Source: Pseudomonadota bacterium
GTDB taxonomy: Bacteria > Pseudomonadota > Gammaproteobacteria > Burkholderiales > Burkholderiaceae_C
Assembly: GCA_021808525.1 (NCBI GenBank)
Contig: JAKBBK010000007.1
Span: 16,335 to 80,334 of the forward strand
DNA length: 64,000 nt
Direction of reading: 5' to 3'
The notes under the pieces: model-generated
Database searches by the model: none
What the model was told of the DNA's origin: nothing
What the model saw: the letters and a program-made list of their open reading frames with translations, nothing else
Shown: in pieces, positions 47,727-62,005 of the stretch
How positions within the stretch are numbered: position 1 is the stretch's first letter
How the letters are laid out: each line of letters starts with the position of its first letter
Made by a program: the position numbers and the translations under genes

Positions 47727-50700
47727 CTAGGGACCAAACCACATGCGGTACTGCAGGGTCCATTGCAGGCTCTGGCCCGAGGCATCGCGCAGGCGCTGGT
47801 AGCCCAGGGCGAGCTGATCCCCGCCCAGCAGCGGTCCGCGCAGGCCGACATCCACGTTGCGGGTCAGGCCCAAGGTACGTGATTGCAGCAGGTCGAGTTC
47901 ACCATAAGGCATCCAGCGCCCGGCATAGCCCCGCGCATGGTCCATGCCCAGGCCGATCCCGACCCCGAAGGCGCTGTCGCTGATGGGCATGAACAAGCTC
48001 GCGTCCGGTACCGCTGCGCCGGGAACCAGCCCGGCGTAGGCCGGCAGGCGCAGCCCGGCCACCGTGCTGAAGTCCTGCTGGTAGCCCAGGAGCTTGAGCT
48101 CCACGTCGGGCTCGCCCAGCCGCAGTCGCAGGCCGATCTGGGCCTGCAGCGCGCGGCCGCTGCCCAGCGCCTGGCCCGAGCGCGTGCGGTAGCGCATGCC
48201 GGCCGCCGTGAGGCTGGCGTACATGCGCCCGAAGTCGCGCTGCAGGCGCAGTTGCAGGCGGTCGCGCGCGCCCGCCACCAGCAGCGCGGCGGATTCGTCG
48301 GCGACGGCGTTGCGCTCGATCTGGATGCGGCTGTCGATGGCCCAGGGCAGGCGCGCCGAGGCTTCGAGCTTCCACCCCTGCGCCAGGCCCACGGCGCGGT
48401 TGCGGGTCCAGCTCAGTCCCAGGCTGCGGTGCCCACCCCGCCAGCGCAGGCCCAGGCTCGCGTCACTCCACCATCCCGGCAGGCCCACCAGGGTCGACGC
48501 ATCGGCGCTGCCCAGGGTCTGGCGCGCGGCGTCGAGGTCCAGGCTCCAGTGGCGGTCCGCCTGCCAGTGCAGGCTGGCCCGGGGGCCGCGACGCACCACG
48601 CTGCCCAGGCGCAGGTCCTGCCATTGCAGGTCCGCCGTGCTGGCCAGCGCGAGTTCACGCGCCGCGGTCTGCGCCTGCAGTGCACGCAGCTGCGGGGAAT
48701 CCTGCCCGGAACGCGCCGCCCGCTCCAGCACGGCCTGGGCGAGGCGCAGCGAGCGCCCCGCCTGGCCGGCTGCCTGCTCGGCCTGCACAAGATCCGGCGC
48801 CTGCAGTGCGGCGGCGCCTGTGCCGCGCAGATCCCTCGCGATGGCCGGGGCGTCCCGAGCCCCCAGGTCGAGTTGCAACCGCAGGGACTGACGCGCGGCC
48901 GCCGACAACGCCTGGTGCGCCAGCCACCAGCGCGCCGCCGAGCGGGTGTCGAGGCCCGCCAGCCAGTCGGCGATGGCCGCGTCGGCGCGCTCGCGCTGCT
49001 TGGGGCTGAGCGTGCCACGCTGCAGGCGCGAGCGCAGCGCGGCGAGCAGGCTCTGCTGCCCTGACGCGCCCACGTAGCGGCGCGAAAGGCGCAGTCGCGC
49101 GATCAGCTCGCCCAACCCGGCATCGGCTGGGGCGGGAGCTCCGCGCGGTGCCTGCGCCGGGCGGCGCAGCAGCTCCCAGGCACGGCCCCAGGCCAGAGCG
49201 GCGCGGCGCGCGTCGCCGAACTGTTCCCACAAGTCACCATAGTCCAGCAGCCACAGCGCATCCGAGGCATGGGCCGGGTACAGGCGCTGCGCGTAGCCCA
49301 GCGCCTCGCGCGTGTCTCCCAGGGCCTGCGCCGCCGCCAGCGAAACCTCCAGGCCCTCGGCGCTTGCGCGCAACGCCGGGGCGAAGCCCGGGAAATGCCG
49401 GCGCAGGCAGGCGCGATCGCCACTGTCGATGCAGATCCACAGCAGGGCGATCTCGTAGCCGCGGTCGCCGGGGGCCAGGCGCAGGGCCTGCTCCTGGTCG
49501 GCCAGGGCGAAGCGCCAACGCCCCAGCGCCTGCCAGACCTGGGCGCGCGCCGCGTACATGTCGGCTCGCCGGGACAGCTGCGCCCACACCGCGCTGTCGC
49601 CCACCTGCTCCTGCCATTGCCGCAGCCCCTGCGCACTGGGCTTGCGCTGCAGCAGCTGCAACCACAGCAGGGCCAGTTCGCGGCTCGGGGCGCGGGCCCA
49701 GGCCTGGCGCAGCAGCGCCAGCGCGGCCGGCACGCCGCGGCTGCGCCGGGTCAGCAGGATCAGGCGCTCGACCTGATAGGCGCCGAGTTCGCCGCGCATG
49801 GAGCCATCGGCCCACACCGAGGCATAGGCCTGCTCGGACCGGGCATCGCGTCCGAGATCCCAGGCCAGGTCCCCCAGCAGGCGCTGGTGCGCCGCGCGCA
49901 GGCTCGCCGGGCCCGGCAGCGAAGGGGTCGAGGCCAGGACCTCGAGGGCGGCGTGGAAACGACCGTCCTGCACCAGGGCGTTCGCGTAGTCGATGCTCGC
50001 GCGCAGATCCAGCTTGCCGCGACGGGCCGCCTCGGCGTAGACCTGCAGGGAGCGTCGGACCTCCCCCATATTGCCCAGCAGCCATGCCAGTGCGGGAAGC
50101 AGGCGGGGATGCGAGCGCGCGCCGCGGCGCAGCACCCGCACGGCGCCTTGCGCATGCCCGGCCGACTCCAGGGTCTGCGCGTAGCGCAGCCAGTCCTGCT
50201 CGCTCAGGGGGCCGTGGGCGGCGCGTTCGCGCCAGTACAGCTCGAGGCCGGCCCCCGCATGCTGTCCCAGCGCGAGCCGGTATACCTGCGCCAGCGCGAG
50301 CTCCGAGTAGTGCCTGCGCAGCAATTGCATCCATTGCCCGAGCGCCGCATCGGGATGCCCGCTCCATTCCAGGACTTGCGCCCGGCGCCTCTGCCACCGA
50401 GGGTCCGCGGGGGTGGCGACCAGCGCCGCGTCCGCGACGCGCAGCGCCTGGCCCGGGTGCCCCGAACCCAGGAGCACCTGCCAGGCCAGCTCGCGCCGCG
50501 ACGCGTTCATCTGGCGCGCCAGCACGGCGGCCGGCTGCTGGACATCGACGCAACGGTGCAACCACTGCATCGCCCTGCCGGGACGGTCCGCGCCCAGTGC
50601 GAGTCGCACCATCATCCAGCGCACGCCGGGCCCGACCTCGGCACGCTCGACCGCGCGCTCGGTCAGGCGCCAGGCCAGCAGGGGCTTGCCCGAGGCCAGC

Positions 50701-51401
50701 AGCACCCGAGCAGCGGACCGGATCAGGCGATCGCGCACCGCGGGGTCGCGCGCGTGCTCGGCGGATGAGAACAGCACGCGGGCCGCCAGCTCGTATCGAC
50801 CCGCGTCGACGAGCAGGGCCCGCGCCTGGCGCGCGCTGGCCGCGTCCAGGGGCAACAGCCGCAGCAGCGACGGCTCCAGCCAGGGCGGCGTGACGCTGGA
50901 GAAACGCCGCGACAACTCCACCGCGGCCTTCCACTGCGCGAAGTCGGCGGGCCGCAAGCCGGCGATCAGGCGCTGGATCGCCGCCCGTGCCTGCCCCATG
51001 GCCGTCGTGTCGCGCGAGGCGACGGCCTGGTCCCAGATGGCCTCCCAGGCGCGCAGGCGCAAGGCATCGACCCGCTCGCCCCGCAGGCCGTCGAGTTCGC
51101 CCAGGGCCTGGCGCGCGCGTCCGACATGCAGGTAGCGCTCGCCGAGCATGGTGCGCAGCGTCGGGTCGCCGGCGCGCAAGGCCGAGAGCTCGCGCAGGTA
51201 GTCGATGGCCAGCGCGTCGTTGCGGGTGCGCGCCAGCAGGGGCAGCAGGGTCCTGCCCGGATAGGCCACCACCAGCAGGGCCACGCACAACAGGGCGAGC
51301 CCGATCAACTCGCCGCGAGGGAAAAGCTGGTTTCGCCGTGGGTCATCCACCCCGACATGCAGGGCATCCGCGGCTGGCGACTGTTTGCGCGGGCTCGGCA
51401 A
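47727..51401 (-). CDS. pelB: Pel polysaccharide TPR/porin PelB
   Basis: 1224 aa; long TPR array and C-terminal beta-barrel ending QSLQWTLQYRMWFGP; operon position. Confidence 0.93.
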   Translation of the reverse strand: MPSPRKQSPAADALHVGVDDPRRNQLFPRGELIGLALLCVALLVVAYPGRTLLPLLARTRNDALAIDYLRELSALRAGDPTLRTMLGERYLHVGRARQALGELDGLRGERVDALRLRAWEAIWDQAVASRDTTAMGQARAAIQRLIAGLRPADFAQWKAAVELSRRFSSVTPPWLEPSLLRLLPLDAASARQARALLVDAGRYELAARVLFSSAEHARDPAVRDRLIRSAARVLLASGKPLLAWRLTERAVERAEVGPGVRWMMVRLALGADRPGRAMQWLHRCVDVQQPAAVLARQMNASRRELAWQVLLGSGHPGQALRVADAALVATPADPRWQRRRAQVLEWSGHPDAALGQWMQLLRRHYSELALAQVYRLALGQHAGAGLELYWRERAAHGPLSEQDWLRYAQTLESAGHAQGAVRVLRRGARSHPRLLPALAWLLGNMGEVRRSLQVYAEAARRGKLDLRASIDYANALVQDGRFHAALEVLASTPSLPGPASLRAAHQRLLGDLAWDLGRDARSEQAYASVWADGSMRGELGAYQVERLILLTRRSRGVPAALALLRQAWARAPSRELALLWLQLLQRKPSAQGLRQWQEQVGDSAVWAQLSRRADMYAARAQVWQALGRWRFALADQEQALRLAPGDRGYEIALLWICIDSGDRACLRRHFPGFAPALRASAEGLEVSLAAAQALGDTREALGYAQRLYPAHASDALWLLDYGDLWEQFGDARRAALAWGRAWELLRRPAQAPRGAPAPADAGLGELIARLRLSRRYVGASGQQSLLAALRSRLQRGTLSPKQRERADAAIADWLAGLDTRSAARWWLAHQALSAAARQSLRLQLDLGARDAPAIARDLRGTGAAALQAPDLVQAEQAAGQAGRSLRLAQAVLERAARSGQDSPQLRALQAQTAARELALASTADLQWQDLRLGSVVRRGPRASLHWQADRHWSLDLDAARQTLGSADASTLVGLPGWWSDASLGLRWRGGHRSLGLSWTRNRAVGLAQGWKLEASARLPWAIDSRIQIERNAVADESAALLVAGARDRLQLRLQRDFGRMYASLTAAGMRYRTRSGQALGSGRALQAQIGLRLRLGEPDVELKLLGYQQDFSTVAGLRLPAYAGLVPGAAVPDASLFMPISDSAFGVGIGLGMDHARGYAGRWMPYGELDLLQSRTLGLTRNVDVGLRGPLLGGDQLALGYQRLRDASGQSLQWTLQYRMWFGP

Positions 51402-51410
51402 TGCGCCCCC

Positions 51411-54284
51411 TCAGGCCCGCCGCAGCAGCAGGTCCAGCGAGGTGCCCTGGCCGTGAACATGCCATTGCTCGCCCTGCCGGCGGGCCGTGACCCCCGGGCT
51501 GGGCGCCAGGGTCCAGCCCGCCGGAAGGCGCAACACCGCCTCGACCGGCACGAAACCCTGCAGGCGCAGGCGCTGGGAACCTGCCTGCGCGGGCTCCCAG
51601 GCCACCACGTCGGCGTTCGCCTCCATCAGCATCGGCCGCGCCGCGGCCGCCGCGCCGACCCGCAGCACGGCATCGCCGGCCAGCACGTGCACGTAGCGCC
51701 GCGATCCATGATGACTCCAGCCCACCACCTGCGCGCAGCCCTCGAGGGCCGGCTCGGCCACGCCGCGGGGCTGCGCCCATTCCCGGATCTGCTCGGCGCC
51801 GCGCAGACGCCAGCCACCGCCCAGGAGGCGCGCCACGGTGGCGCTGCGCCACTGCACCACGCTGCGGGAATACTGCCGCCCCTGAATGGGGTGCACCGCC
51901 TGCGCCAGGGCCCAGCGAAACACCTTGTGCAGGCTTTGCAGGCCGGCCTCGCGGGTGACGATGTAGGGATGGAAGTAGATGTCGATGGGCTTGAGGCGCC
52001 GCGGCAGATCGGTCATCTCGTAGGTTTCGATGGCCCGCTCGAAACCGAAGTAGGGTCCGTGCCAGTCGTGGGTGTAGTCCTCCTCGTTGGAACAGGCCGC
52101 GTAGACCTGGAACCACGAGCCCTTGGGAATGCCCATCGGGCCGACCAGCGAAACACTGGGCGCCGAGCGCGTGATGGTGGCGCCTCCGCCGTTGATGTTG
52201 GCCATGCCCGCGGCATAGGCCATCTCCACCGCCTTCACCGGGGGATTGCAGTCCCCCGGCCACAGCAGCATGTCGCAGGGCTTGCCCGGCGGGCACAGAT
52301 GCTTCTCGATGTAGTCCCTGGCGCCGGTCACGTTGCCGGCGGTGCTGAAACGGTAGTTCGGCAGCGGCAGGTAGTTGCCGACCCCGCCATAGCCCTTGCC
52401 CGTGGGAAAGCGGGCGTGGTAGCGCGAGGCCAGCACCCAGTCGAAGGGATGGGACCAGGTGTGGCTGCCGGCCTCCACCCACGGCAGGGCATACATGCGC
52501 CGCGCCCAGTACTGCGATTGCGAGGCGACCGCCGGGTACAGGCCTTCGCTGCTGACCTCCCCGACGATGATCGAGCCGACGATCGGAATGCGGTACTGCT
52601 CCAGCACTTCGCGCACCAGCACCTGCCCCGCGATCGGGGAGCCGGGGCGCAGGCAGGCATTGGGCCAGCCGTCGCCGTCGAAGTGCGCCATGAGCACGCG
52701 GCGCCCGAAACGCGTGGTCAGGTCGGGCATCGGGTCGTCGGAAACCCGCAGCGCGGCCCGGAAGAACTCGATGGGGTCGATCGACCAGCGGGTGCCGTTG
52801 CCGCCGGGCAGGTTGAACACGCCGAAGGCGCCCAGCGCGTAGCCCCCCCAGGCGGTGATGGCCGCCCCCTGCATGCGCCTGCCCTGGGCGTCCACCGCCG
52901 TCAGCCAGGGCTGCGCATGGGGCCCGGCGTCCACTTCCACCGCGCTGAGCGCATCGACGATGGGCAGGATCTCGCCCGCGGGGGTTCCGGGTGCGCGGCG
53001 GATCTCCAGGGGCCCCGCCAGCGCTCGCTGGCCCACCCGCACTCCGAGTTCGCCGAGAAACTGCGGGTCCAACGCCCCCAGCACGGCCACCGGCACCCCC
53101 TCGTCGCGGGCCCTGCGCAACCAGGCGCCCAGGCCTTGCGGAACCCTGGACGCGTCGGGGTAGAGCACGATGCCGGCCACGCGCCCCGCCAGGGCCTTGT
53201 CGGGCAGAGCCGAGCCCATGTAGCGATAGTCGGGCACCAGGCCCAGATGCTCCAGCGGCATGGCGCCGTACAGGTGGGCGCCCTGCGCCTGGAGCTCCGG
53301 GGCGTCGCCCTGCTCGCAGGAATGCAGCAGCCAGACGCGTCGCGGCACCACCTCGACGCCGCCGACTCCCAGGCTGCTGAGCATGCCGTCGGCCACCCAG
53401 GGAATCAGGCCCTGCTCCGCGATGCGCGCCGCCGTCCGTCGCGCCAGATCACGCTGCGCCACGGCGCAGTAGTCGATGGCGATTCCCGGCAGCGCGAATC
53501 GCTCCCGCATATCCTGGAACCGTGCCATCAGCCAGGCGCGATCGTCCGCGGAAACGTCCACGTAGGCCCGGCTTCGCGGGTCCCAGCCCTGGTACAGGGA
53601 CTCGGCGGCGATGGCGTCGATGGCGGCGGCGAGCCGGGCATCGACGAGCTCGAAACCCCGGTTCAGGATCAGGCGCATGCCGGGAAAGGACCCCACCAAC
53701 TCCTGCAGGGTCTGGCGCAGCGCCTGCTCCTGGCCTTGGCGCTGCGCGGGCGTGCTCGCCGCCAGCTGATAGGAATCCAGCGTGTCGAGAAACAAGCCGC
53801 GGAACCCGGCCTTCCACAACGGAGCCACGATCTGGTCGCGAAGGAATGCCCTCCACCCCGGCGCGGTCTGGTCGATCACCCGCGTGCCCCAGCTGGGATT
53901 GCTCGCCGCCGTCCAGCTGGCCGGCAAGGACTTGAACCGGGGATCCTCGGGGTCGATCTCCCCCACCGACACATAGGCGAAGGGCCGGGTATACGGGCCG
54001 AAGGCGGTGCGCAGATCCTTCGCTTCGGCCAGCGCCGGCTGCGGCTGCACCACCACCCAGTCGAAGGCCCCGAGTTCGTCGAAGGGGATGTCGTCGCCGT
54101 AATAGAACGCCACCGCCGGCCGCTCCTGCGCGGCCGACCGGCCGCCCCCCGAGGAGCTGGTCGTCGCTCCAGGCGCGGCCGACGCGTGCGCCGCGGGCAG
54201 CGTCGCGCACCAGGCCCGGCGGCTCCACGGCAGGGCGGCCGCACAGCCTTGCATCAGGGATCGAAGAAAACGTCTACGTCGCAT
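51411..54284 (-). CDS. pelA: Pel polysaccharide deacetylase/hydrolase PelA
   Basis: VAFYYGDDIPFDELGAFDWVVVQP hydrolase domain, HFDGDGWPN, SHTWSHPFDW deacetylase motif, LLWPGDCNPP. Start MRRRRFLRSL. Confidence 0.96.
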   Translation of the reverse strand: MRRRRFLRSLMQGCAAALPWSRRAWCATLPAAHASAAPGATTSSSGGGRSAAQERPAVAFYYGDDIPFDELGAFDWVVVQPQPALAEAKDLRTAFGPYTRPFAYVSVGEIDPEDPRFKSLPASWTAASNPSWGTRVIDQTAPGWRAFLRDQIVAPLWKAGFRGLFLDTLDSYQLAASTPAQRQGQEQALRQTLQELVGSFPGMRLILNRGFELVDARLAAAIDAIAAESLYQGWDPRSRAYVDVSADDRAWLMARFQDMRERFALPGIAIDYCAVAQRDLARRTAARIAEQGLIPWVADGMLSSLGVGGVEVVPRRVWLLHSCEQGDAPELQAQGAHLYGAMPLEHLGLVPDYRYMGSALPDKALAGRVAGIVLYPDASRVPQGLGAWLRRARDEGVPVAVLGALDPQFLGELGVRVGQRALAGPLEIRRAPGTPAGEILPIVDALSAVEVDAGPHAQPWLTAVDAQGRRMQGAAITAWGGYALGAFGVFNLPGGNGTRWSIDPIEFFRAALRVSDDPMPDLTTRFGRRVLMAHFDGDGWPNACLRPGSPIAGQVLVREVLEQYRIPIVGSIIVGEVSSEGLYPAVASQSQYWARRMYALPWVEAGSHTWSHPFDWVLASRYHARFPTGKGYGGVGNYLPLPNYRFSTAGNVTGARDYIEKHLCPPGKPCDMLLWPGDCNPPVKAVEMAYAAGMANINGGGATITRSAPSVSLVGPMGIPKGSWFQVYAACSNEEDYTHDWHGPYFGFERAIETYEMTDLPRRLKPIDIYFHPYIVTREAGLQSLHKVFRWALAQAVHPIQGRQYSRSVVQWRSATVARLLGGGWRLRGAEQIREWAQPRGVAEPALEGCAQVVGWSHHGSRRYVHVLAGDAVLRVGAAAAARPMLMEANADVVAWEPAQAGSQRLRLQGFVPVEAVLRLPAGWTLAPSPGVTARRQGEQWHVHGQGTSLDLLLRRA

Positions 54285-54467
54285 ACTGGCAGGGGGCGCC
54301 GCGCCGAGGCCCGGACAATCCCGCCATTGTGCAATGACGAGCGGCAATGCGCGGAGTTTCTGTAGCTTAAATCGAACAATCCTCGCCAACTTCGCGGCGC
54401 ACCTGGCTATTCCACGCGGCTGGCGCAATATCGTTCCGGACGCTCTCGCGCGGCATCGCGCCGGCCC

Positions 54468-56045
54468 TCAATACGGCGCGAGCAGTGCATACATGTTGCT
54501 GCGGTATGGCCCGGCGCCCTGCAGCAGCAGCGCCTTGCCGGCGCCGCTCATGCCATGCGCGATCTTGCCGGCATTCACCAGCGTGCGCAGTGCATCGAGC
54601 CGGTCCCCGCTGGTCAACGGCCCCAGGATCAGCGCGACGTCCTTCGCGTGCAGGTTGCCCGCGAGGTCGCCGGCCACCAGCGCGATGGCATTGCTGCGGA
54701 AGGCGTCGGAATTCGCGACCATGCTGGCGACATCCGCAGCCGACAGCCCCTGCCGCACCTTTCCCGCCTGCTGCAAGCTCTGCAGCACATTGAGGCAGTC
54801 CCCGTTGCGCGCATTGCCGATGAGGCTCACGACATCCTGGGCGTCGAGCCCGCCGGCCAGCGCGGGGCTGAGCAAGGCGACTGCATTGGGCCAGAACGGC
54901 TCGGTACCCCCGAGAATGGCCAGCGCACCCTTGGTCGACAGCCCCTGCTTGATGCGCCCGGCCTGGATCAGGCTGCGCAAGGCGTCCAGGCGGTCGCCAC
55001 TGCCCAGCGGGCCCAGGACCGCGGCGACCTGCGCACCATCGAGTCCCGACTGAAGGGCCGGAGCCAGCAGTTGGACTCCGTTGGATCGAAAGGGGTCGAT
55101 GCCGTTCAGCAACTTGACGGCCTGCTCGACGTGCAGGCCGAAGGGCAACTGCCCCTTGCTCTGCGCGTCGCGAAGCATCTGCAGACGGTCGCCTTGGCTG
55201 CTGTTGCCGAGAATCGAGAGCAGGCCCGAGACGTCCGGCGCGGGAGGCGCTGCCGACGCAGGCGCAGGCTTGGCAGCGGCGGTCGCGCTCGCCGGAGATG
55301 GAGCCGGCGCCGGTGCCGCCGGGCTCGGCTTCGCCACAGCACTCGCCAGCACCGGCGTTGCCGCGGCCACCTGGGTCGGTGCCGGAGCATCGGCGCGTGC
55401 TGCGACGGCCCCCGGGTGCGTGGAGCCGGCGGCGGGCGCCGACGCGAGCACTGCCGCCGCCATCGCGACCGGCTTGCGCGATGCCGACGCATGGCGGCCG
55501 AACAGTCCGCCCATCCATGCCGCGCCCGCAGCGACGACGATCAAGCCAGCAGCGCCGAGAGCGACGAGGGGGCTCTTGCCCCTGCCACGCCGACGCGGCC
55601 CACCCGCGGGCCCCGGCTGGGTGCCATCCAGTTCGCCGAGCATGCCGCCGATGTGATCGCACAGCTCGTCAAGCTGGCGGTCGAAATCGTCGAACAGGTC
55701 GATGAATTGGCGATTCGACAACTGGTATTGAAGCGCTCCCGATGCGGGCACGTCCTCGATACGCGCGGGAATGATGATCTTCTTGCTCGCCAGCGAGAGC
55801 TCCTTGGCGATCTCGGCGGAGGCGTTCGCGTTCGCCGAGAACACCAGCACCACCGCACGCGCGCTTTCGATGGCGGCCACGATGCAGGATTGATAGTCCG
55901 ATCCTGGGGGAATGTCGCGCGAACTGATCCAGGCATCGATGCTGCGCGCGCGCAGCCGTTGGTAGATCTTTTCGGCAAGCTTCTTGTCGGCGCTCGAGAA
56001 GGAAATGAAGACTTTCATGGTGTTGTTGTCGTGCGGAGTGATCAT
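54468..56045 (-). CDS. TIR-domain protein: TIR, single TM, Ala/Pro linker, four 65-aa repeats
   Basis: TIR motif KVFISFSSADKKLAEKIYQRLRARSIDAWISSRDIPPGSDYQSCIVAAIESARAVVLVFSANANASAEIAKEL; TM PLVALGAAGLIVVAAGAAWMGGLFG; GDRL-type repeat at residues 285, 350, 415, 480. Confidence 0.9.
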   Translation of the reverse strand: MITPHDNNTMKVFISFSSADKKLAEKIYQRLRARSIDAWISSRDIPPGSDYQSCIVAAIESARAVVLVFSANANASAEIAKELSLASKKIIIPARIEDVPASGALQYQLSNRQFIDLFDDFDRQLDELCDHIGGMLGELDGTQPGPAGGPRRRGRGKSPLVALGAAGLIVVAAGAAWMGGLFGRHASASRKPVAMAAAVLASAPAAGSTHPGAVAARADAPAPTQVAAATPVLASAVAKPSPAAPAPAPSPASATAAAKPAPASAAPPAPDVSGLLSILGNSSQGDRLQMLRDAQSKGQLPFGLHVEQAVKLLNGIDPFRSNGVQLLAPALQSGLDGAQVAAVLGPLGSGDRLDALRSLIQAGRIKQGLSTKGALAILGGTEPFWPNAVALLSPALAGGLDAQDVVSLIGNARNGDCLNVLQSLQQAGKVRQGLSAADVASMVANSDAFRSNAIALVAGDLAGNLHAKDVALILGPLTSGDRLDALRTLVNAGKIAHGMSGAGKALLLQGAGPYRSNMYALLAPY

Positions 56046-57887
56046 TCAGGCCTTGGGCATTTCGAGCTCGTGCGACTTGTGCAGCAGCGCCCAGTCCGCC
56101 TGTTCGCGCAGCGCCTCGATGCCAAGATCGCGCAGGATGCCGCGCAGGTGCGCGCGGCAGCGCGACTTCGCCTCGGCGTGGGGCAGCAGGGCCTGGTACA
56201 GAGCGCGCGCGGTGCCGAAGAGGTCGTGCATGCGCTGATGTTCGCGCACATCGTCGCGATATCCCGCGAACTCGAGGTAACCGGCCAGCAGCCCCGACCA
56301 CGCCGGCAAGAGCCCGAGGGTCACCACCAGCCAGGCCCTGGCCGGCGAATCGCCTCCGCCCAGTCCGTCGACATGGCCCAGCATCCCCGCGAGCACCAGC
56401 AGCGCCAGTCCCACGGCAGCGCGATAGGCCCACTTGGATACAGCCTGGATGCGGTTGACGACGGCTCGCCGGCGCCGCACGCTCTGCGTGAAATAGGCCA
56501 GCTGGTCCTCGAGCCAGGCGTTCAGGACCTCCGACAACGCGCTCTCCGATTCGTCGGGCCCAACCGGAACCAGCCCGGACAGAGCAGTACGCACCCATTG
56601 CAGGGTCGTGCCATGGCGTCTCAGGTAATGCTTCGATACGGGCTCGACGATGCCCCCCGCCACCCAGAAGGTCTGGACCCGAAGGCCCTCGGCGAGTACG
56701 CGCCAGTCGACCGCGCGTTCGTTGGCCTCGGTTCGCCGCAGGACTCTGACCTTCACACCGATCAGGCTCATCAGCCCCAGGTAGACGGCGAGCCAGTACC
56801 AGGCCGTGAAGACATGGGCCCAGGTCTCGAACACGGTGGCCAGCGCCACCGCCAGGATGAATATGTTGCGCACCTGCTTGCGCACATCGTGGATACCGCT
56901 GTTCGCCATGGCGTCGGCGGCCAGGAACCGTGCGTACAAGCTGCCGACCAGCGGCGAGACCCTGGACGTCGAGGCGGCCCGCCACTTGGCGGTGATCGCC
57001 ACCAGCGCCTCGGGCGGCGCAAGGTGCTCGCGCAGGCGCGCGTTGTAGGCGTCGAGTTCCTGCAGGTGCCGCAGTACGGATTCCCGCGGATCGTCAGGCA
57101 GCTTCGGCATCCACTCGCTGTCGCTGAAGGCCCATCGCGGAGCCTGCACGTCCTCCACGCCTGGCGGGCTGGGCTGGCTGCGGCGCCGGGTCGGGAGCCA
57201 GCAGACGATGCCGACCTGCGGTTGATCGAGCAGGCTGGCATCGAGCAGCCGGTCCAGGTGCTCGATGCCGTCGCCGTGTTCGTTGAGCAGGCGGATATCC
57301 CGGCGTGCGCTGACGATCTGGGCCGTCCCGCCGAGGCCGCGTGCAGGCTGACCGTCCCAGGCGGCGATCAGGATCTGGGCCCGACCCGCCAAGTGCAGCC
57401 CGGCCTGCGCGTACTGCAGATCACGCCCCAGTCCGGCTTGCGCGGCGCCCTCGGCGTCCACCCCGGCGACCCATGGCAGGGCACTGACCTGGCGCGCCCT
57501 GGCCAGGAGCGCATGAAATTCGTCGGCGGACTCCGGGAAATCCCGCTCGTACTCGGAGCACGGCAGCGGCAGCACCACGTCGAGGGCCAGTCCGCGTGCG
57601 AGCGCGGCCGCGGCGAACACGCGGTCCGCCCCCTCGGCCAGCGAACTGAGCGCCTGCAGCGGAGTGTGCGGGAGGCGCTCGGCGATGAGATCCAGGACCT
57701 TGCCGATGGCTTCCTGCAGCAGATGAGCGTCGGCCGGATCGCGGTGCCCGGTGACCGCGATCGTGACAGGGATGGCGAAGTCGTCGGCACCCGTGGGGCC
57801 TCTCACGGCAAAGTCGGGCTGTTGCGAGCGCTGCGATTCCATCAAATCGATCAGACTGGCTGGATCGTCGCGCGGGGCATGCGCCAC
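56046..57887 (-). CDS. SLOG-domain (nucleotide-sensor-like) protein fused to multi-TM (SLATT-like) region
   Basis: VTGHRDPADAHLLQEAIGKVLDLI...ALSSLAEGADRVFAAAALARGLALDVVLPLPCSEYERDF (SLOG), then hydrophobic segments IFILAVALATVF, WYWLAVYLGLMSLIGV, AAVGLALLVLAGMLG, AWLVVTLGLLPAWSGLLAGYLEF. Confidence 0.8.
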   Translation of the reverse strand: MAHAPRDDPASLIDLMESQRSQQPDFAVRGPTGADDFAIPVTIAVTGHRDPADAHLLQEAIGKVLDLIAERLPHTPLQALSSLAEGADRVFAAAALARGLALDVVLPLPCSEYERDFPESADEFHALLARARQVSALPWVAGVDAEGAAQAGLGRDLQYAQAGLHLAGRAQILIAAWDGQPARGLGGTAQIVSARRDIRLLNEHGDGIEHLDRLLDASLLDQPQVGIVCWLPTRRRSQPSPPGVEDVQAPRWAFSDSEWMPKLPDDPRESVLRHLQELDAYNARLREHLAPPEALVAITAKWRAASTSRVSPLVGSLYARFLAADAMANSGIHDVRKQVRNIFILAVALATVFETWAHVFTAWYWLAVYLGLMSLIGVKVRVLRRTEANERAVDWRVLAEGLRVQTFWVAGGIVEPVSKHYLRRHGTTLQWVRTALSGLVPVGPDESESALSEVLNAWLEDQLAYFTQSVRRRRAVVNRIQAVSKWAYRAAVGLALLVLAGMLGHVDGLGGGDSPARAWLVVTLGLLPAWSGLLAGYLEFAGYRDDVREHQRMHDLFGTARALYQALLPHAEAKSRCRAHLRGILRDLGIEALREQADWALLHKSHELEMPKA

Positions 57888-58445
57888 CGCCTGCCCGTCG
57901 GCGGCTCTTTCACATCAACGCAACGATCGAAACGGGAGAAATCCTGCCGAGCGCCGCCGAGATTGCGAAACGGTTGCCGCAGCATGGGTGGATGGGCAAA
58001 GTCTACGTGTCGTTACAGGCGCGGTGTCAAGGTGGCTTTCCTATTGTTTCTGTTCGCTACCGAATATCCCGGCTGATTATCCCCGACAACACCCTGGGAA
58101 TTTGTCTTCCGGCGCCGGCATTTCTGGTCAATCTCCAGCGACCGGGGGAGGAGCCTGTGGCCCCTTCGGGTTCATGCTCAGCCCGACTTGAGCATCGCTG
58201 GCTTCAGGCTGCCGTGAGGCTCGATCGGCAACGACCAGGCGCTCAGTCCATGGCCCTTGAACGGGCGGATTTTCTCCTGTTGCTTGAGATGCTTCGGGTC
58301 CGCTCGCGAATCCATCCGACTTTCTCGGAACTGGATTGATTTGAAAGCGGGGATCTTCGGACTTTGGTCCAGTAGCATGGCTGATGGCGCAGTCATGAAG
58401 CTTGGCTTCCAACGCCTGCGGACCGTCCCCACGACATTAGCTAAG

Positions 58446-58464: not shown

Positions 58465-58493
58465 AACATAATGTGTGATTGCCGGGAGACGCC

Positions 58494-58742
58494 ATGCATA
58501 CCGTGAACATGTTCGATGCCAAGTCCTCGCTGTCACGCCTGGTCGACGCCATCGAACAAGGCCGTGAACGGGAGATCGTGATCGCGCGCAACGGACGACC
58601 CGCGGCGAAGCTTGTCGCCGTGGGCGAACCGACGCCGGGAACCCGTCTGGGCGTCGCCAAAGGCCGCTTCGAAGTGCCCGAGGACATCGACGCCCACAAC
58701 GCCGAGGTGGCTCGACGGTTCGGCCTGCCTCCAGCGCCATGA
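58494..58742 (+). CDS. type II antitoxin, Phd/YefM family
   Basis: MHTVNMFDAKSSLSRLVDAIEQGREREIVIARNGRPAAKLVAV. Confidence 0.92.
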   Translation: MHTVNMFDAKSSLSRLVDAIEQGREREIVIARNGRPAAKLVAVGEPTPGTRLGVAKGRFEVPEDIDAHNAEVARRFGLPPAP

Positions 58743-59125
58743 ACCTGCTGCTGGATACCCATGTGGCGCTGTGGGCCATCACCGACAGTCCCAGGCTCAC
58801 GGCTCGCGCGCGAGAGCTGATCGCTTCGCCGCGCTCGTCCATCTGGGTCAGCGCGGCGACCCTCTGGGAGATCACGATCAAGCACGCACTGCATCGCGGC
58901 GACATGCCGGTGTCCGGCCAGGATGCCCTGCGCTACTTCCGCGAGGCTGGCTACCGGCTGCTGCCCATCGAGCCCGAGCATGCCGCCGCGCTCGCGGAGC
59001 TCGCGCCACACCACCAGGACCCCTTCGACCGCATGCTGGTCGCGCAGGCGCTGACCGAGCCGATGCGACTGCTCACGCACGACGCCCTCGTGGCTCGCTA
59101 CAGCGACTCGATCATCGCCGTGTGA
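58739..59125 (+). CDS. vapC: type II toxin, PIN/VapC family
   Basis: MNLLLDTHVALWAI, SAATLWEITIK, HHQDPFDRMLVAQAL acidic residues; 4-nt overlap with antitoxin. Confidence 0.93.
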   Translation: MNLLLDTHVALWAITDSPRLTARARELIASPRSSIWVSAATLWEITIKHALHRGDMPVSGQDALRYFREAGYRLLPIEPEHAAALAELAPHHQDPFDRMLVAQALTEPMRLLTHDALVARYSDSIIAV

Positions 59126-59171
59126 TCAAAACCCTCGCCATGCATGCGGGTATACGGTCGCATCGCACCGC

Positions 59172-59290
59172 CCGTTCCGCCATGCGACCAAGCCCGGGAA
59201 GGTGACCGTGCCGTACCCGAAGAAGGACCAGCCGCTGCCGACCGCGCGCTCGATCATGAAGCAGGCCGGGATCGAATCCCAGGAGACCCG
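59172..59290 (+). pseudogene. hicA remnant (C-terminal piece)
   Basis: Translation from 59175: FRHATKPGKVTVPYPKKDQPLPTARSIMKQAGIE, the HicA C-terminal motif, with no N-terminal half in frame. Confidence 0.7.
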
Positions 59291-59390
59291 ATGCTCTACC
59301 CCGCCTACGTCCACATCGGAGACGACCAGCACGCCCACGGCGTGACCTTCCCCGATTTTCCGGGTTGTTGCTCGGCCGCGGACACGTGCA
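59291..59390 (+). pseudogene. hicB remnant (N-terminal piece)
   Basis: MLYPAYVHIGDDQHAHGVTFPDFPGCCSAAD is a HicB N-terminus; homology ends abruptly near 59390. Confidence 0.7.
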
Positions 59391-59400
59391 TCAATGATGG

Positions 59401-59434
59401 TGGCTCGCCGACCAGGGCGAATCTGGGCACTGGA
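59401..59434. repeat. 34-bp direct repeat, copy A
   Basis: tggctcgccgaccagggcgaatctgggcactgga; 32/34 identical to 60467..60500. Confidence 0.85.
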
Positions 59435-59501
59435 CTCTCACCCTACCAACACATCGCCACCCGGGTGGGATGCACCCGAGTGGCTAACGGTAAAGGTCGC
59501 T

Positions 59502-59522
59502 TGTCAGGACACTGTCCGGACA
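59502..59522. promoter_or_regulatory. tandem TGTC(A/C)GGACA boxes, candidate operator for the DUF1778-GNAT module
   Basis: tgtcaggaca-c-tgtccggaca, 40 bp upstream of antitoxin start. Confidence 0.65.
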
Positions 59523-59562
59523 CATAGAATGAAGGCATCCAAGACAAGACCGAAGGGGTCCC

Positions 59563-59841
59563 ATGAACACCCTGAATCTTTCCAAGACCGAACGCATTGA
59601 CGTTCGTGCAAGCACGCCGGTCAAGCAGCTGCTGCAGGAGGCCGCGCGCGCCTGCCACAAGAACGTCAGTGAGTTCCTGCTCGACGCAGGCGTGACGGCG
59701 GCCGCGCAGACGCTGGCGGATCGTCGCCGGTTCGTGCTCGACGAGGCGCAGTGGCAGGCGTTCCAGGACGCGCTGGATCGTCCAGTGCAAAACAAGCCGC
59801 GCCTGAAGACGTTGCTGCGTGAACCCGGGGTGCTGGGTTGA
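59563..59841 (+). CDS. DUF1778 (TacA-like) antitoxin
   Basis: KTERIDVRASTPVKQLLQEAARACHKNVSEFLLDAGVTAAAQTLADRRRFVLDEAQWQAFQDALDRP. Confidence 0.92.
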   Translation: MNTLNLSKTERIDVRASTPVKQLLQEAARACHKNVSEFLLDAGVTAAAQTLADRRRFVLDEAQWQAFQDALDRPVQNKPRLKTLLREPGVLG

Positions 59842-60341
59842 GCAGTGGCTACGCGCCCGTTCGCAAGCTGCTTGTTACGGATCAGGTCGATGCCTTCGAC
59901 TGCGGCCAGGCCGCGCTGAACCAGTTCCTGCAGCGCTATGCGCTCGTCAATCAGAAGGCCAACAGCGCGCAGACCTACGTCTGCTGCCACGGTGATGTGG
60001 TGGTCGGCTTCTACAGCCTCGCCGTCGGTAGTGTCGATCCGGACACCGCGCCATCAAGAGTGATGAAGGGACTGGCGCGCCACCCGGTACCGGTCATGAT
60101 CCTGGCCCGACTCGCGGTGGACAAGGAGCATCAGCGTAAAGGCCTGGGCCAGGCATTGCTCAAGGACGTGCTGCTGCGCACCGCACAGGCCGCCGACATC
60201 GCCGGCATCCGTTGCCTGCTGGTGCATGCCAAGGATGATACGGCGCGGCTCTGGTACGAGTCCTGGGAATTCGAGCCTAGCCCGACCGATCCTTATCACC
60301 TGTTCCTGATGCTCAAGGATCTCAAGGGCATGTTGAGCTGA
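59838..60341 (+). CDS. GNAT acetyltransferase toxin (TacT/AtaT-like)
   Basis: FDCGQAALNQFLQRYA, VVGFYSLAVG, LARLAVDKEHQRKGLGQALLKDVL; TTG start overlapping antitoxin stop. Confidence 0.92.
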   Translation: MSSGYAPVRKLLVTDQVDAFDCGQAALNQFLQRYALVNQKANSAQTYVCCHGDVVVGFYSLAVGSVDPDTAPSRVMKGLARHPVPVMILARLAVDKEHQRKGLGQALLKDVLLRTAQAADIAGIRCLLVHAKDDTARLWYESWEFEPSPTDPYHLFLMLKDLKGMLS

Positions 60342-60432
60342 GGTGGTGTCTCCACCTCAGAGCCCGACTCTCTCGCGCTGCTCATCCCACAGCGCCGGCG
60401 GATTGACCGCCAGATCGGACGGCGAAATGAAA

Positions 60433-60460
60433 ACGGCCCCTGCATCGCTGCAAGGGCCGT
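60433..60460 (-). terminator. intrinsic terminator (minus strand)
   Basis: ACGGCCC-loop-GGGCCGT with T-rich tract on the minus strand. Confidence 0.65.
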
Positions 60461-60466
60461 CGAATG

Positions 60467-60500
60467 TGGCTCGCCAACCAGGGCGAATCCGGGCACTGGA
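60467..60500. repeat. 34-bp direct repeat, copy B
   Basis: tggctcgccaaccagggcgaatccgggcactgga; see 59401..59434. Confidence 0.85.
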
Positions 60501-60565
60501 GCGTCACGCTCGCTTCAGCGCCCTGAGGCACACGACCGGAACGCCCTTACGCCCTCGCGTCGCGC

Positions 60566-60847
60566 TCAAGCCGCAAGTTCCCGCAAGATCTCCGGATGGC
60601 GCGTTGCAACGATCATCAACGTTTGCGCCGCACCGGACGGCTTGCGTCGGCCCTGCTCCCACTCCTGGAGCGTGCGCACCGATACCCCCATGAGTGCGGC
60701 GAATTTCGACTGCGAGAGTCCCGAGGCAGCTCGCGCCTGGGCAACCGGCGAATGAACGACGGCACCCTGCCCGGCTCGCATCTGCTTGACCGATTCGAGC
60801 AGCTTGTGCCCGAGCTCCTCTCCGGTCATGACGTCACGCTTGGACAT
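60566..60847 (-). CDS. XRE-family HigA-like antitoxin
   Basis: MSKRDVMTGEELGHKLLESVKQM...ARAASGLSQSKFAALMGVSVRTLQEWEQGRRKPSGAAQTLM. Confidence 0.9.
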   Translation of the reverse strand: MSKRDVMTGEELGHKLLESVKQMRAGQGAVVHSPVAQARAASGLSQSKFAALMGVSVRTLQEWEQGRRKPSGAAQTLMIVATRHPEILRELAA

Positions 60848-61152
60848 GGTCGATTTCCTCCTTGATGGCCTTGAGGATGTCGGCGGGAATGGTACCGCGC
60901 ACGGCCTTCGCATAGATGACCAGAAGGAAGATCACGCCGCTTTCCAGTCGGTTCGTAGATCACACGAACTCCGCCGCGCTTGCCAGTGCCCGAGCGGCTC
61001 CACCGTACCTTGCGACATCCGCCCGAACCCGGGATAACGTCACCTGCCAACGGGTTCGTGGCAAGCCACGCGCAGAACTCGCCACGCTCATCCTCGGTCC
61101 AGATCGACTTGGCGTCAGAGCCGAAAAGCGGTGTCTCGACGACGGTGTACAT
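60834..61152 (-). pseudogene. RelE/HigB-type toxin with frameshift
   Basis: MYTVVETPLFGSDAKSIWTEDERGEFCAWLATNPLAGDVIPGSGGCRKVRWSRSGTGKRGGVRVIY then the natural continuation NRLESGVIFLLVIYAKAVRGTIPADILKAIKEEIDHVQA* is in another frame; break near 60955. Confidence 0.8.
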
Positions 61153-61243
61153 GGCACGCATCATACGTCATTGACGTATGCAAACAGCTTTCGGAAGCAA
61201 CATCCATGCGCCAGCCATGGTGATGAGGCGGTCTGGTTGCGCT

Positions 61244-61657
61244 TCAGGAGCGACCTCGACCTGACGCTCCTGCCCCGCGCCCCACTCCCTCAGCGAGAAG
61301 CATTGTGATCAACGTATTGAGCGACGTTCCCTCCGACCGGGCGCGTGCGACCAGCTCTGCATGGAGACTGCGCGGCAACCTCTGCACCAGCTTCACCGGT
61401 TCCGGCGTTTGTCCGTGACGCGTCGGCTTCGGGATGGGCTTGCCCATATCGGCGCGGGCGGACATCCAGGCCGAGAACGCATCGCGACCGTTGGCGATGG
61501 TCTCCTCGATCGTCTCGCCGTCAGACATGCAACCCGGAAGGTCGGGAAACGTGATGATGAATCCGCCGCCATCCTCCTCGGTCAGCGGTTCGACGATGTG
61601 CGGATAGGCCTCGAAGGCATACGGCGCCTCGACATGCGCGATCTTGATGTCGATCAT
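61244..61657 (-). CDS. hicB: HicB-family antitoxin
   Basis: YPHIVEPLTEEDGGGFIITFPDLPGCMSDGETIEETIANGRDAFSAWM. Confidence 0.92.
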   Translation of the reverse strand: MIDIKIAHVEAPYAFEAYPHIVEPLTEEDGGGFIITFPDLPGCMSDGETIEETIANGRDAFSAWMSARADMGKPIPKPTRHGQTPEPVKLVQRLPRSLHAELVARARSEGTSLNTLITMLLAEGVGRGAGASGRGRS

Positions 61658-61899
61658 GGCTGTGACTCCCTCACCTTGTCGCACAGTGCGACGAAATGGC
61701 GGATGTAGATGGGCTTGATCGGGCGATGCGCCGGAATGCAGACATCCTCATCGACGCCGGGGTACGAGAACACATGATGACCGCCACTCTCATTGCGACA
61801 GCTCAACCCCAGGCGCGCTGCGATCGACTTCACCTCATCGATACGCCAATCACGCGGATTGTTGCGCATGCGCTCCAGAGCCTTCTCATGCCTGACCAT
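61654..61899 (-). CDS. hicA: HicA-family mRNA interferase toxin
   Basis: LGLSCRNESGGHHVFSYPG...PAHRPIKPIYIRHFVALCDKV; catalytic His region; overlaps hicB start. Confidence 0.88.
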   Translation of the reverse strand: MVRHEKALERMRNNPRDWRIDEVKSIAARLGLSCRNESGGHHVFSYPGVDEDVCIPAHRPIKPIYIRHFVALCDKVRESQP

Positions 61900-61906
61900 G
61901 CGCGAA

Positions 61907-61926
61907 TAGTATCACCTGCGACACTA
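61907..61926. promoter_or_regulatory. inverted repeat upstream of hicAB, candidate operator
   Basis: TAGTATC-N6-GACACTA (one mismatch) 8 bp from the hicA start codon. Confidence 0.5.
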
Positions 61927-62005
61927 TCTTGCAGAGCGAGGCGAGGCGAGGCGCCACGCCTGCGTGGCGGCAATCAGTCACGTTCGCGTCACGGTGGCGC
62001 CCAAA

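Follow-up and report, generated by a model that had tools for sequence, protein, structure and literature searches.

Gene content and genomic context of the locus

The window (the whole 64,000-nucleotide stretch analysed here) carries a two-gene operon whose features are collected in Table 1. The TGA of the upstream gene, P0002, immediately precedes the ATG of P0001 (0 bp gap), and it is the latter that contains the tandem repeats of interest. The N-terminal domain of P0001 scores 87.5 bits against the Pfam TIR_2 profile, well over its cut-off of 28, which identifies it as a member of the TIR family, and its Glu82 occupies a WxxxE-type position that holds Glu in 9 of 9 aligned TIR domains. P0001 keeps the catalytic-type glutamate of TIR NADases, and enzyme activity is predicted; TIR domains may act as scaffolds rather than enzymes.

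Table 1. Features of the operon and its surroundings (window positions)
Feature	Positions	Strand	Basis
P0001, TIR - TM - Ala/Pro linker - repeat protein, 525 aa	54468..56045	-	ORF and translation; Pfam TIR_2, E 1.3e-24
P0001 TIR domain, residues 12-129	55659..56012	-	Pfam TIR_2; E82 at 55800-55802
P0001 single predicted transmembrane (TM) helix, residues 156-183	55497..55580	-	Kyte-Doolittle peak 2.15; RRRGRGK N-terminal flank
P0001 Ala/Pro-rich linker, residues 184-270	55236..55496	-	36 Ala and 17 Pro in 87 residues
Repeat 1, residues 271-335	55041..55235	-	Repeat alignment, structure model
Repeat 2, residues 336-400	54846..55040	-	Repeat alignment, structure model
Repeat 3, residues 401-465	54651..54845	-	Repeat alignment, structure model
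Repeat 4, residues 466-525 (60 aa)	54471..54650	-	Repeat alignment, structure model
P0002, 613 aa, SLOG-like N-terminus and SLATT-like membrane domain	56046..57887	-	Directly upstream of P0001
P0002 SLOG-like domain, ~residues 39-195 (TGHR, SLAEGAD, ILIAAWDG..GGT)	57303..57773	-	Pfam YAcAr E 0.0029; 18-member alignment
P0002 SLATT-like membrane part, hydrophobic segments ~341-383 and 486-538	56274..56867	-	Hydrophobicity; family profiles
4.0-kb segment with the P0001/P0002 pair, 4,006 bp	54430..58435	.	Comparison with congener G002
Phd/PIN	58479-59125		Pfam
TacA/GNAT	59563-60341		Pfam
Xre/RelE-like	60566-61164		By eye
HicB/HicA-like	61244-61899		By eye

The membrane topology of P0001 was judged from its one hydrophobic segment, the charges of that segment and the N-termini of proteins sharing the repeat. 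The RRRGRGK flank lies on the TIR side of the helix, which predicts an N-in, C-out orientation. By the positive-inside rule, well established for the orientation of membrane proteins, this charged flank would therefore place the repeats in the periplasm, and with moderate confidence we regard a periplasmic C-terminal domain as most likely.

P0002 looks like a SLOG-SLATT-type membrane protein, the case for which comes from its family since its own scores are weak: alone it matches the Pfam YAcAr SLOG profile with an E-value of 0.0029, below the cut-off, and SLATT_4 with only 0.095. YAcAr matches 6 of the 18 family members, and the TGHR, LAEGAD and ILIAxWDG..GGT motifs are conserved across the alignment of 18 homologues. 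The membrane domain is recognized in 16 of these 18 proteins by the NCBIfam SLATT_1 profile (best E 3.7e-16).

The pair sits within a 4.0-kb segment that is absent from congener G002, where pelA (86% identical) is followed by 127 bp and then by the phd/PIN pair, and neither protein found a match in any of 27 congeners searched. A second congener (G008) holds approximately 1.6 kb of unrelated DNA between pelA and phd/PIN (L094:3013-4660), marking a variable cargo site. The GC content of the segment is slightly lower than that of the window (0.675 versus 0.701); no terminal repeats of at least 8 bp were present at its junctions and no integrase was seen at the segment. This pattern fits a cassette acquired horizontally at a variable site, although loss in relatives may also account for it. 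Directly downstream, on the same strand, lie pelB-like (PelB barrel and TPR) and pelA-like (GH114) genes (47727-54428), while on the other side a probable toxin-antitoxin cluster (58479-62000) ends at a riboflavin-synthase-like gene. Apart from these toxin-antitoxin pairs, no known defence gene was identified in the neighbourhood.

An old array of 65-residue repeats

The repeats fill residues 271-525 of P0001 as four ungapped units with a period of exactly 65 amino acids (65, 65, 65 and 60), the fourth being shortened by the C-terminus. An earlier note, made from the sequence alone, had described four tandem 65-residue repeats at 54471-55235 with GDRL/GDRL/GDCL/GDRL motifs at residues 285, 350, 415 and 480, and the period, the coordinates and the motif positions all proved exact. 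Any two repeats share 21-30 of 60-65 positions (32-50% identity), with BLOSUM62 scores that lie 8.2-11.5 standard deviations above those of composition-preserving shuffles, thereby excluding chance as the source of their likeness. From a by-eye alignment of half-repeats and the predicted structure, each 65-mer can be divided into two half-repeats of ~33 amino acids with two helices apiece, one containing the GDRL motif and the other PFRSN.

At the DNA level the repeats are just 45-54% identical, and only 7-12 of the 21-30 identical residues share a codon. Low DNA identity and differing codons together indicate that the array is old and has been maintained by selection on the protein; on the same grounds a recent tandem duplication or a sequence artefact can be ruled out as the origin of the repeats.

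Predicted fold of the repeats

Searches of Pfam, NCBIfam and PDB sequences returned no match over the P0001 repeats, and no repeat family of established function was clearly hit. The earlier statement that the repeat belongs to no recognized family thus stands at the level of sequence, although its predicted fold resembles that of a named family, DUF4476 (Pfam PF14771), for which we know of no established function. An AlphaFold2 model built with five related sequences (mean pLDDT 92.9, pTM 0.85) contains 16 helices arranged as an alpha-solenoid of eight two-helix half-repeats. The Foldseek comparison proposed in the earlier note was informative in the viral library (BFVD) and not in the PDB. 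Against the latter the best E-value was 7.6e-4 with a TM-score of 0.13, which is meaningless, and VIA gave a best Z of 6.7 to a designed helical repeat; as both methods return generic alpha-solenoids, a specific PDB fold match was dropped. In BFVD several of the top matches are giant-virus proteins, three of those listed being annotated as DUF4476.

To follow up this resemblance we modelled a genuine DUF4476 protein (pLDDT 95.4), the middle half-repeat of which consists of an 8-residue helix, a turn and a 14-residue helix. Both models show ~33-residue two-helix half-repeats (a helix of ~8 residues, a turn, a helix of ~13-14 and a short bridge). Of the 12 best BFVD matches of the repeat model, 10 reappear in the top 34 of the DUF4476 model, DUF4476-annotated giant-virus proteins among them. 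This likeness is judged by secondary-structure pattern and common Foldseek neighbours, and generic helical repeats match too. Several DUF4476 proteins that we fetched begin, by eye, with a signal-peptide-like sequence. On the other hand, DUF4476 is a 91-position domain, whereas P0001 has eight half-repeats in a strict 65-residue double period, and homology between the two is undetectable in sequence. The PF14771 profile matched neither P0001 nor the four other repeat proteins described below at E <= 10, an HMM of 15 DUF4476 segments scored -1.2 bits on P0001 (7 of 200 shuffles did equally well), and the reverse test of a half-repeat HMM against DUF4476 gave nothing significant. Sequence homology to DUF4476 (hhalign, HMM) was rejected, all scores being non-significant and at or near the shuffle level. 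Because the pattern and BFVD neighbours agree but the sequence profiles provide no significant link, we call the repeat DUF4476-like in its modelled fold and not a member of DUF4476.

Distribution of the repeat

The repeat was sought elsewhere by searching whole genomes with a 13-row repeat profile, approximately 400 genomes being sampled at each of the levels of order, class and phylum. Four other carriers came to light, two of which have trypsin-like protease parts: P0003 and P0004 are adjacent proteases with 6 and 3 repeats, respectively, in a genome of the same order (L003:135-3489), P0005, from the same class, is made of repeats only, and P0006, from the same phylum, is cut by the end of its contig. 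Two further matches (L008 and L015) were judged spurious, and by eye belong to biotin-carrier-like and HD-domain-like proteins. No repeat was found in phages, plasmids and viral contigs, a genome-wide peptide-pattern scan using repeats 2 and 4 gave no match, and a search among relatives of G051 and G921 for a larger repeat family yielded no further members. As sampled here the repeat is sparsely distributed.

All four of these proteins have, by eye, signal-peptide-like starts, evidence in favour of the repeat lying outside the cytoplasm. The genome that encodes P0003 and P0004 also has a TIR protein of the same layout as P0001, TIR-TM(154-183)-linker-other domain. In this protein (L011:1498-2643) the linker is again Ala/Pro-rich, and the C-terminal domain resembles, by eye, a discoidin-type beta-sandwich.

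Recurrent pairing of TIR and SLOG-SLATT genes

Among 25 relatives of P0002 from public genomes, twelve have a TIR gene within flanks of up to 5 kb, and a thirteenth (L052) has a sub-threshold TIR. Seven of these TIR genes adjoin the P0002 relative on the same strand within ~210 bp, and the pairing recurs in several phyla. Relatives of the window genome rarely match TIR (7 of 60), and on this informal comparison the association appears to lie far above background. In a separately found genome (G050) the SLOG-SLATT gene adjoins two genes, one for a SIR2-TIR protein (its SIR2 part recognized by eye and from its resemblance to L042) and one for a P-loop NTPase-like protein.

The remaining part of the TIR partners is variable, being TPR, SIR2, FGE-sulfatase or an unassigned TM-linked C-terminus, and none of these operons carries the 65-residue repeat. 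Several of the partners also lack a TM helix, and in those versions the variable part can be cytoplasmic. From this comparison we derive a constant TIR/SLOG-SLATT core with an exchangeable partner domain. At L052:6959-8965 the gene next in line after SLOG-SLATT encodes an FGE-sulfatase domain (E 1.1e-58) together with a TM helix and a degenerate TIR. SLOG homologues also occur in two unusually long ORFs of 937 and 899 amino acids (L050:277-3090 and L048:2820-5519), possibly representing other SLOG fusions. That the repeat might be a ligand-sensing module, one of the roles raised in the earlier note, is plausible, since its relatives have apparent signal peptides and the corresponding slot of TIR partners is filled by TPR, FGE-sulfatase or SIR2 elsewhere.

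Comparison with known systems

Conflict modules that combine TIR with SLOG-SLATT have been predicted by comparative genomics (PMC9503650, PMC7159879). The present locus shares with them a TIR gene adjoining a gene for a SLATT membrane effector and recurrence across phyla, and differs in that the C-terminal part of P0001 is a new repeat connected through a TM helix and an Ala/Pro linker. Thoeris (ThsA/ThsB) likewise comprises two genes, of which one encodes a TIR and the other a nucleotide-binding domain of SLOG-like type, and its TM-macro ThsA is also a membrane effector (PMC11204291). However, P0002 has neither of the ThsA architectures (SIR2-SLOG or TM-macro): no SIR2 or macro domain was found in it with Pfam, NCBIfam or PADLOC, its SLOG domain precedes the SLATT membrane part, and the PADLOC ThsB matches cover the TIR domain only. 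Unlike in Thoeris, the TIR protein is itself membrane-anchored and carries a repeat domain. With Toll-like receptors P0001 would share only a logic, namely a repeat sensor that is probably extracytoplasmic, a single TM helix and a cytoplasmic TIR; the reversed chain order, the unrelated repeat and the bacterial two-gene output make this an analogy. To the best of our knowledge, the bacterial TIR systems studied experimentally so far all detect infection inside the cell.

A proposed mechanism and its alternatives

Taking as observations the domain order, Glu82, the repeats, the fold modelled for them, the operon, the recurring TIR/SLOG-SLATT pairing with its variable TIR partner part and the patchy presence of the pair at a variable site, we propose that P0001 and P0002 constitute a defence (conflict) module of two genes, with the solenoid as the sensor, the TIR domain as the source of a signal and the SLATT part as the component that permeabilizes the membrane. 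We consider the case for this reading evenly balanced. The periplasmic location, the NADase activity, the signal, the trigger and the outcome are the predicted elements of this scheme. P0001 would be an inner-membrane protein with a cytoplasmic TIR domain, a TM helix, a flexible Ala/Pro linker and a DUF4476-like solenoid. Binding of an envelope-associated cue or an invader (phage) component by the solenoid would cluster P0001, whereupon the TIR domains would come together and turn NAD+ into an ADP-ribose-type signal. This signal would be bound by the SLOG domain of P0002, whose SLATT part would oligomerize and permeabilize the inner membrane, leading to cell arrest or death. In its most specific form, which we put forward tentatively as a possibility on the unlikely side, the periplasmic DUF4476-like solenoid of a TIR receptor would detect an incoming phage or damage to the envelope, either ahead of entry or while it is under way, and a dedicated SLOG-SLATT pore would receive the resulting NAD-derived signal. 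P0001 would then be an extracytoplasmic pattern-recognition receptor whose logic is Toll-like, and related operons would carry exchangeable sensors.

The same pair could also operate with a solenoid that is cytoplasmic, or that serves mainly for oligomerization or as a scaffold clustering the TIR domains in the manner of TPR or HEAT arrays, the trigger being sensed elsewhere. Alpha-solenoids often mediate protein-protein contacts, and the TIR-TPR partners in Qipengyuania (L053, L055, L056 and L059) are without a TM helix; in P0001, by contrast, the TM helix is clear, its TIR side is positively charged and the Ala/Pro linker is long, and the other repeat proteins look secreted, so that we find this arrangement doubtful. 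The signal might instead flow in reverse, with TIR as the effector (through NAD+ depletion or as a scaffold) and P0002 as the sensor or signal component. Some TIR proteins, such as those of CBASS and CRISPR-associated TIRs, are nucleotide-activated NAD+-consuming effectors, and SLOG is related to TIR with a suggested action on nucleotides (PMC7159879). We nevertheless judge reversed flow to be rather improbable, because the SLATT class is predicted to be an output effector and the variable, sensor-like part sits in P0001.

A role outside anti-phage defence, in which the pair would signal envelope or cell-wall stress in connection with the neighbouring pel exopolysaccharide genes, would account for the position of the pair directly beside pelA/pelB on the same strand and for its probably periplasmic repeats. 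Yet pelA of G002 adjoins phd/PIN without the pair, and although 15 of 28 genomes of the genus have pelA, no other genome matches the pair. The presence of pelA without the pair in congeners therefore suggests that the pel neighbourhood reflects the insertion site, and leaves such a pel-linked role very improbable.

Significance

With a probable periplasmic sensor and a SLOG-SLATT partner, P0001 would be a candidate, open to experimental test, for a protein that senses infection at the envelope. The finding brings a functionally uncharacterized DUF4476-like fold into a signalling context, and the constant TIR/SLOG-SLATT core with its exchangeable partner domain offers a rule by which further sensors may be found. 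The novelty lies in where the DUF4476-like repeat stands, namely in the variable portion of a TIR protein that has SLOG-SLATT as its partner, and its interest would rise if periplasmic sensing proves true.
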